Shown: in pieces, positions 32,259 to 34,289 of the stretch
How positions within the stretch are numbered: position 1 is the first letter of the stretch
Layout: every line of letters begins with the position of its first letter
Notes under the pieces: generated by a model
What the model saw: only the letters and a program-made list of their open reading frames with translations
Database searches by the model: none
What the model was told of the DNA's origin: nothing
NCBI GenBank assembly: GCA_015296075.1
Contig: DVDV01000183.1
Location: 1-36,827, forward strand
DNA from: Leptolyngbyaceae cyanobacterium M33_DOE_097
GTDB lineage: Bacteria; Cyanobacteriota; Cyanobacteriia; Leptolyngbyales; Leptolyngbyaceae
Direction of reading: 5' to 3'
Length of the DNA stretch: 36,827 nt
Program-made: the position numbers and the translations under genes

Positions 32259-32795
32259 TTAGAGAGAGACTTGAGAGTTTGTTTGCGGTTGCCGCCGTTC
32301 TTGTTCCCAGCGTTCCAGCAAAACCGGGAGTTCGCGCTCACAAAAAGCATGAATGTCACGCATTTCTTCGAGTCGCTGGTGAAGATGGGCAGGAGTGTCT
32401 TGCAACAACTTCAAACCGCGTTCAGCAATTTCACGAAACGCAGTATTTTGTACGATTCGTTGGCGCATCATCTCCGACCAGGAATCAGGCTTAATCCGAA
32501 AATAATCGCGCCGTTGCCCCGGCAAGCTAAACCGCTCGATCAAACCAATTTGCATCAAAAGCCGAGTCATTGTGCTGATTGAGCCTTTGCTCGCTTGCAG
32601 CACCTCTGCCAGCTCAGAATGCGATTGGTAGGGTGGCTCAGAAATCAGCAACCAACCAAAAATCCGCCCTGCCATGCGAGGCAAGCCCACCATTTCAAAT
32701 AAGACACTGACATCTTCAACATAGTGTCGCTGCTCAAAGCTGGGGTACTCTTGCTGAGCACTTAATTCTGATGCTTGGTTAGCAGAAATGTTCAT
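32259..32795 (-). CDS. GbsR/MarR-family transcriptional regulator
   Basis: A winged-helix regulator of about 178 aa, likely controlling its own operon. The DNA-binding part is at about 30-100: MAGRIFGWLLISEPPYQSHSEL, then LQASKGSISTMTRLLMQIGLI as the recognition helix region, then RRDYFRI as the wing. The C-terminal half is helical and probably dimerises. ATG 32813 is possible and adds MCYLRG, but that start touches a palindrome just upstream (32815-32834), so ATG 32795 is preferred; neither start has a good ribosome-binding site. It is first in the operon with the adaptor and permease genes, the usual place for a local efflux regulator. Effector unknown. Confidence 0.85.
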   Translation of the reverse strand: MNISANQASELSAQQEYPSFEQRHYVEDVSVLFEMVGLPRMAGRIFGWLLISEPPYQSHSELAEVLQASKGSISTMTRLLMQIGLIERFSLPGQRRDYFRIKPDSWSEMMRQRIVQNTAFREIAERGLKLLQDTPAHLHQRLEEMRDIHAFCERELPVLLERWEQERRQPQTNSQVSL

Positions 32796-32814
32796 GCCTC
32801 GAAGATAACACATC

Positions 32815-32834
32815 TGTTCAGTAAATACTGAACA
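32815..32834. promoter_or_regulatory. Probable operator of the efflux operon
   Basis: TGTTCAGTA and TACTGAACA form a perfect 9-bp inverted repeat separated by two bases. It lies at the start of the regulator gene. Its length and symmetry fit binding of a winged-helix dimer, so autoregulation by the adjacent GbsR/MarR-like protein is the simplest reading. Confidence 0.65.
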
Positions 32835-32879
32835 AACTAAACCGACTGAAGGCTGAAAAAACCGTAAAAAATGAGCGGC

Positions 32880-32899
32880 TTACCCTACCTCTAGGGTAA
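32880..32899. repeat. Perfect 8-bp palindrome between hepT remnant and efflux operon
   Basis: TTACCCTA and TAGGGTAA are separated by CCTC. On the minus strand a T-rich stretch begins about nine bases after the hairpin, so it may terminate transcription from the toxin-antitoxin remnant. An upstream operator of the efflux operon is the other option. Confidence 0.5.
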
Positions 32900-32987
32900 A
32901 GACTTTAACGAGTTCATTCCATTGGTTTTATTTACAATGCGCATAGAGTGTCTCGCTCCACCCACTTGAAATAGACAATGAGACGTC

Positions 32988-33329
32988 TTACCAGAGTTCC
33001 GAAGAAATCTGCGATTTCAATTCCTCAACTAAAGGCGGCACCTCAAATTGAATGACATTCCAAACAATGCTAAGGTTGACATCATCATATTCATGCACTA
33101 ACCGATTTCGCATTCCGTTGATTTCCTGCCAGGAGATATTGGGCAATGCCTGTCAAGTTGCCTCTGAAACTCGCCTTGCAGCTTCAGCAATAACCAACAG
33201 TCGCCGAATGACTGAATCTTGAAGCTGCACATTCTCAACAAACTCATGCTGTGAACATTGAGCCGTGTAGGCCAGGATTAACTCCGCAGATTGCAGCGTA
33301 TCAAGCAGGAACTGAAGATCCCGTTGCAT
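32988..33329 (-). pseudogene. hepT: HepT-like HEPN toxin (DUF86), interrupted by a TGA codon
   Basis: The minus-strand frame starts at ATG 33329 (AGGT five bases before) and would encode 113 aa, normal for HepT. It reads MQRDLQFLLDTLQSAELILA, continues through a conserved IRRLLVIAEAARRVSEAT and then meets TGA at 33153-33155 (codon 59). After the stop the same frame continues with LPNISWQEINGMRNRLVHEY, containing the HEPN catalytic motif R-x4-H-x-Y, and ends at TAA 32988-32990. The truncated product would lose that motif and be inactive. HepT toxins are RNA-targeting proteins kept in check by MntA-type nucleotidyltransferases, and the partner lies immediately upstream. The rest of the frame is clean, so the lesion is recent or a sequence error. 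Confidence 0.8.
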
Positions 33330-33342
33330 AAATTACCTGGGC

Positions 33343-33633
33343 TTAGGAAAGGATTTCATGACGGCGTAGGCAGTTGCGGCTCGCTTCAATTCCCTGCCGG
33401 GTAATCAAGTCAACTTCTCGATTGAAAATGCTCTGTAGCTCCGATTCCATTTGGTCTAGGGTGCGGAAAGTGGGATAAGCATCTGGGTGAAATTGCACCA
33501 TCACATCAATATCACTGTTAGGACGAAAATCGTCGCGTAGAACAGAACCAAATAGAGCAAATTCTGTCACTTGCCACTTGTGACAAAACTCAACAATTTT
33601 CTCCGTCGGTAGTTAAATCGCCGTGATGCCCAT
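33343..33633 (-). pseudogene. mntA: MntA-like antitoxin nucleotidyltransferase with an early TAA codon
   Basis: Read from ATG 33633, the frame gives MGITAI, a TAA stop (33613-33615, codon 7), then LPTEKIVEFCHKWQVTEFA and a normal minimal nucleotidyltransferase core: LFGSVLRDDF and SDIDVMV, the GS...DxD metal-binding motif. It ends with a family-typical tail (DLITRQGIEASRN, RRHEILS). A single change such as CAA to TAA explains the stop. Translation might restart at GTG 33570, giving a 75-residue core lacking the first helix. The MntA family AMPylates HepT toxins. It is 13 bases upstream of the hepT remnant, the usual order. Because the toxin is also broken, the module seems to have lost function. 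Confidence 0.75.
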
Positions 33634-33770
33634 GTCAGCTTTTTAATTGTTCCTTGATCCAAGTTGATAGATTTCCCTACTACTAATGTAGCGTCTGTCT
33701 AAAGCATGAGCTTCGCTAGTCCTTGTTAGGGCGACTGATCGCCCCTTTTCTCTTGACTAACTAAACCCAA

Positions 33771-34289
33771 CTACACCGATTGAGTCCGAGTTGCCGCCAG
33801 TTGATCAACCGTTAGTTTCTCATAGTGTTCAAACGGTTGATGAATCCAGGGATTATCTGCCAAATAATCAACGTAATAATCTGGCTTCACCACCGAGCAA
33901 TCTTTATACCAAAGCACCGCTGTACGCATTTCCTCAATGTAGAAACCATAGCGGCGATCAAGCCAGATCTTCGATTTTTGCAGGGTAATGCCAGAGTCCA
34001 CCAGATCATCAGCAATCAGCACATGGCTTCCCAAATTGGCAGTTGTTTTCGTCAAGTCATGAGAGAAAGTAATCGACCCCCGCACCTGGTTATTTAGCCC
34101 CCCATAAGACGAGGTAGAGAGAATCGCTAAGGGCACATCAAACAAGCGCGAAAAGATGTCGCCAATCCGCAAACCACCCTTCGCGAGACAAACAATTTGG
34201 TTAAATTGCCAGCCTGAGTTATAAACCTTAACGGCCAACTGCTCAATTTTGTCGTGATAATCGGCCCAAGAAACGTAGAGATCTGACAC
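33771..34289 (-). CDS. Purine-type phosphoribosyltransferase
   Basis: A 172-aa type I phosphoribosyltransferase. The PRPP-binding loop VLIADDLVDSGITL is clear, and the N-terminal part (VCLAKGGLRIGDIFSRL) carries the usual PPi loop. Length and sequence fit xanthine/hypoxanthine-type salvage enzymes, which attach a free base to PRPP, but the base cannot be told from the sequence alone. The start is GTG 34289 with AAGGGG seven bases before it. The gene is divergent from the sugar symporter; the start codons are about 70 bases apart, so their promoters must overlap. Confidence 0.88.
   Translation of the reverse strand: MSDLYVSWADYHDKIEQLAVKVYNSGWQFNQIVCLAKGGLRIGDIFSRLFDVPLAILSTSSYGGLNNQVRGSITFSHDLTKTTANLGSHVLIADDLVDSGITLQKSKIWLDRRYGFYIEEMRTAVLWYKDCSVVKPDYYVDYLADNPWIHQPFEHYEKLTVDQLAATRTQSV

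Follow-up and report, generated by a model that had tools for sequence, protein, structure and literature searches.

How does a toxin-antitoxin module die, and which of its two genes goes first? The question is raised by a pair of small, broken genes in a 36,827-nucleotide stretch of DNA (hereafter the window; contig DVDV01000183.1) from the Leptolyngbyaceae cyanobacterium M33_DOE_097. The initial annotation had recognized here a HepT/MntA module with a single nonsense codon in each gene and intact surrounding frames, and had read the lesions as recent decay, with hepT lost first and mntA second. The reading that we favor, with a probability of roughly 0.8, is that of an ordinary HepT/MntA module which was recently pseudogenized through three nonsense mutations plus the deletion of 13 nt from its leader.

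The identity of the module is readily established. Read through their stops (entered as X), the hepT frame matches PF01934 (E 1.8e-23) and the mntA frame matches PF01909 (E 1.1e-16), each over nearly the whole length, so that the adjacency of a PF01934 and a PF01909 gene that marks the family is found for these read-through frames. Both genes lie on the minus strand: the mntA pseudogene, for an MNT nucleotidyltransferase antitoxin, occupies 33301..33633 (ATG at 33633, TGA at 33301-33303) and overlaps by 29 nt the pseudogene of the HEPN ribonuclease toxin, hepT (32988..33329, ATG at 33329). The known system that it resembles is SO_3166/SO_3165 of Shewanella oneidensis, likewise a pair of adjacent small HEPN and MNT genes, where HepT is an RNase silenced by MntA-catalyzed AMPylation at the tyrosine of RX4HXY, and GSX10DXD is the MntA motif (PMC7641770). 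Both motifs are readable in the window. The GSX10DXD adenylyltransferase motif of mntA (33505..33549, minus strand) is in frame between two TAA codons, and the RX4HXY catalytic and AMP-acceptor motif of hepT (33087..33110, minus strand) is in frame and unaltered but 3′ of a TGA, hence untranslated unless that stop is read through. Different from the Shewanella pair, however, both window genes are interrupted; a functional module has open frames, the window has three nonsense codons, and activity is not expected from it. That is, the window holds a remnant of the HepT/MntA family and no working member.

The codons of relatives were scored in those rows of a set of 47 named loci that were scorable at the site in question. 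Codon 7 of mntA is TAA (33613-33615, minus strand), where 42 of 42 relatives have a sense codon, and codon 59 of hepT is TGA (33153-33155, minus strand), ahead of RX4HXY, where 42 of 43 do; both stops are thus where the initial annotation had placed them. A third one had been mistaken for the end of mntA, at 33343. This TAA at mntA codon 97 (33343-33345, minus strand) is sense in 44 of 44 scorable relatives as well as in 10/10 relatives of an 11-row operon alignment, and the frame past it carries residues that the relatives conserve. In intact relatives, mntA encodes 110 aa and ends 29 nt inside hepT, the real end in the window being 33301. Since the codon is not the natural end of mntA and is sense in relatives, the count of nonsense codons rises to two for mntA and to three for the module. 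A single nonsense codon per gene is therefore correct for hepT and incorrect for mntA, which also has a damaged leader.

The only relative with a stop at any of the three sites, namely, at hepT codon 59, is L138, itself a hepT fragment. We considered common ancestry of this stop in L138 and the window and rejected it, as the two are not sisters in a hepT tree, whose support is weak; recurrence of the TGA is probable. L138 (positions 2501-2731) comes from a MAG assigned to another order, Pseudanabaenales; there mntA is absent, and the hepT fragment is joined to an apparent methylase tail.

The leader damage is evident from the spacing of the mntA start codon relative to a common sequence upstream of it, which is 11 nt in the window versus 24 nt, including a purine-rich block, in relatives such as L137, L112, L099, L140, and L144. 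The junction of the 13-nt deletion lies at 33644..33645 (minus strand), its placement being ambiguous in an A/T run, and the purine-rich block before the start codon is gone. This block would be a putative ribosome-binding site; a clear one is absent from many of the 46 leaders compared. Scanning positions 32700-34000 revealed no sigma-70-like promoter, a result that is uninformative for cyanobacteria.

Could mntA nonetheless work as a shortened antitoxin, with hepT alone dead? Restart at GTG 33570 would give a candidate ORF of 75 aa (33343..33570, minus strand) that keeps GSX10DXD, and, in relatives, an antitoxin that has outlived its toxin is the broken state met most often (19 modules). The restart product would lack, however, the first 21 codons and, through the second TAA, also the last 14, which relatives conserve, and the leader is damaged in addition. 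We regard a restarted antitoxin as very unlikely.

How recent the decay is was assessed with a codon model for branch omega on a 45-row tree, for both genes. On the terminal branch of the window, omega is 0.121 for mntA (95% range 0.066-0.26; background, 0.124) and 0.165 for hepT (95% range 0.077-0.35; background, 0.136), and omega = 1 on the whole branch is rejected for both (LRT of 30.5 and 20.6, respectively). As both genes have been constrained along this branch, indistinguishably from background, the decay is recent, just as had been proposed initially. When the stops are masked, a two-phase model puts the best neutral fraction of the branch at zero, more than ∼0.11 costing >1.92 log units; with the stops included, the best fraction is ∼0.10 (∼0.03 to 0.21). 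At a neutral fraction of 0.10, 0.47 stops would be expected versus three observed (probability of three or more, ∼0.01, calculated by hand). This excess of nonsense over the missense load is in tension with recent decay, though only mildly so because the locus was chosen for having stops. Selected inactivation as the cause of the excess was also entertained, but with a P of ∼0.01 obtained by hand and post hoc, we do not press it.

Full constraint on both genes is also what one would expect if the lesions were unreal, and the assembly does consist of 437 contigs. However, an intact module disfigured by sequencing or assembly errors would have received four separate lesions within ∼500 bp, yet every neighboring gene is open, and the genome is 99.93% complete; errors are a highly improbable explanation. 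Persisting constraint in both frames would likewise agree with stops that are read through, by recoding or a suppressor, such that both proteins are made. Against this, the stops are of two kinds (TAA twice, TGA once) and not found in intact relatives, and the leader deletion would be left unexplained. In addition, no tRNA-Sec in this genome exceeds the gathering score, the best match reaching 42.8 versus 47 bits; such weak matches mean little, given that 14/14 control genomes yield them and only 5 pass. Readthrough therefore seems to us next to negligible.

For the order of loss, we turned to a census of related modules. Three hepT-seeded sets (all 47, first 13, and first 15 loci) and two mntA-seeded sets (all 24 and first 13) amounted to 112 loci, which represent 72 distinct modules of one well-aligned subfamily and were classed by a coverage rule plus hand corrections. 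Both genes are intact in 42/72 modules. Another 19 have a dead or lost hepT next to an intact mntA, eight, of which the window is one, have both genes broken or lost, and three that are cut by contig ends (L105, L142, and L144) were set aside. Not one of the 72 combines a dead mntA with an intact hepT. With events treated as independent, a sign test of 19 versus 0 gives p = 3.8e-6. Clear frameshifts or nonsense codons are present in 6 of the 19 hepT genes (L120, L132, L137, L140, L147, and L159), and this subset is still skewed 6 versus 0 (p = 0.03, by hand). We note that, hepT being at the 3′ end, deletions from that side could favor its loss.

The hepT-seeded sets by themselves, which are able to show an intact hepT with a broken mntA, contained no such case except L134, a deletion fusion that was scored as both broken. 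Some further assignments deserve mention: L154 counts as both broken despite an open mntA frame, L138 and L182 have no mntA and count as both broken or lost, and L167 counts as intact with a divergent partner. The latter is one of six mntA matches without a hepT match and adjoins a divergent HEPN protein gene; for the other five, a HEPN family search found no adjacent HEPN partner. Thus, there is a strong tendency in related modules for hepT to be lost and for mntA to remain intact.

Orphan antitoxins are common also in other toxin-antitoxin families of Klebsiella and Escherichia coli (PMC7192599, PMC10790755), although many orphan toxins are likewise counted (PMC10790755). Antitoxin genes without a toxin are the point of likeness; those surveys, however, counted unpaired genes of other families, whereas here we scored lesions inside paired modules. 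Our literature searches, at the level of titles and listings, returned no paper that scores lesions within HepT/MntA pairs. Makarova et al. 2009 took MNT as the toxin (PMC2701414); the asymmetry of loss seen in our census fits HEPN in this role.

As a general expectation, then, hepT first and mntA second is supported by 19 versus 0 modules. It cannot be read from the window itself, since a single sequence with both genes dead keeps no record of their order. In the reverse scenario, mntA would have died first, with its early stop silencing hepT by polarity and hepT decaying thereafter. The lesions of mntA (two stops plus the leader) do outnumber the single stop of hepT, and the 29-nt gene overlap makes coupled translation plausible; yet the intermediate of this route, a dead mntA with an intact hepT, is the very class without a member among the 72 modules, and we consider the reverse order unlikely.

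Selection on mntA after loss of its partner was approached through pooled terminal omega, which is 0.115 for intact pairs (n = 42), 0.151 for toxin-dead modules (n = 19), and 0.173 for modules with hepT deleted or gone (n = 8), values which neither prove nor exclude retention because terminal branches include time before hepT loss. Relaxed selection on orphan mntA was rejected as a claim, the difference between intact and toxin-dead modules not being significant (LRT 1.7).

The downstream neighbor, a MarR-family regulator (32259..32813), and the upstream neighbor, a phosphoribosyltransferase (33771..34289), are both intact and on the minus strand. The latter, together with an adjoining MFS gene, is conserved in G001, the only other genome of the genus compared, which has no hepT match. 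In an insertion-site comparison with G001, G014, G024, and G035, the phosphoribosyltransferase/MFS side was the only one conserved, and with a single conserved flank, a clean empty site could not be reconstructed.

Intact relatives have HepT proteins 73-86% identical to that of the window. The closest kind of intact orthologue used, L099 of Myxacorys almedinensis A (identical in sequence to G026:C44), is 81% (MntA) and 86% (HepT) identical to the read-through frames and has the same 29-nt overlap. It differs from the window in being intact and directly 3′ of a methylase/specificity ORF of 723 aa (positions 29-2200), which contains N6_Mtase and Methylase_S domains and at whose extreme end its mntA begins. 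The 3′ tail of this 723-aa gene is matched over 34-101 aa in seven other loci, mostly right before mntA (leaders of L112, L140, L135, L110, L132, L144, and G027). The window appears to retain ∼10 codons of the same tail, reading STWIKEQLKS and then a stop (33635..33667, minus strand); this tentative remnant of an upstream restriction-modification methylase gene was recognized by eye and DNA alignment, the window not being among the loci that matched in the search. The HepT/MntA module may have travelled together with a restriction-modification gene.

Several relatives show rearrangements of other kinds. In L134 (1726-2238), which belongs to Filamentous cyanobacterium CCP3, a single deletion has joined codons 1-77 of mntA to codons 18-112 of hepT; the junction is in frame, and the one open MNT-HEPN ORF that results keeps both motif regions. 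In L154/L179 (G325:C1:1376938-1377451), hepT codons 1-84 lead, without a change of frame, into an ORF of a different kind (348 aa), with an mntA of altered N terminus upstream. The mntA genes of L105, L110, and L114 share a 9-aa (27-nt) in-frame insertion (GASLG...) at the same place in three genomes; it is not a dispersed repeat at the order level, since a search of 41 genomes (≤2 mismatches) gave one match, and this lay in G006 itself.

Putting these observations together, the history that we propose begins with a mobile module of HEPN ribonuclease and MNT adenylyltransferase that would have been acquired by the lineage and functional there for most of its time. By analogy with the Shewanella system, HepT would have cleaved RNA, and MntA would have silenced HepT by AMPylation. 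Inactivation would be recent, through three nonsense mutations and the 13-nt leader deletion, such that presumably neither active HepT nor full-length MntA is made. In this locus, too, hepT probably died first, whereupon MntA would no longer have been needed and mntA could gather its two stops.

The same genome contains five PF01934 matches, and its modules differ in their state of preservation. C327 is an intact HepT/MntA pair, and the frames of the C219 and C92 pairs are open as well. At C79 (G000:C79:3054-3666; L004, L093), mntA is open, but a TAG interrupts hepT, whose RX4HXY is altered as well; inspection by eye showed transposase-like sequence close by. At C190 (G000:C190:42290-42595; L094), an open orphan mntA precedes what is left of hepT, a short piece that contains a stop. 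The ORF just downstream of this orphan mntA resembles what we take to be dxr.

The window is thus an ordinary dying toxin-antitoxin module, and its value lies in making the death of such modules open to a clean test. The 19:0 asymmetry fits a requirement for MntA that lasts while HepT is produced; it also identifies orphan MntA genes as candidates for an anti-addiction role. Tentatively, one may imagine that cyanobacterial HepT/MntA modules decay one way, from pair to toxin-dead pair to orphan MntA to nothing, with MntA possibly kept for some time by selection, as an enzyme neutralizing other HepT proteins encoded in the genome or by incoming DNA. If this were true, the window would represent the final stage that can still be read, within a genome where all of the stages occur.
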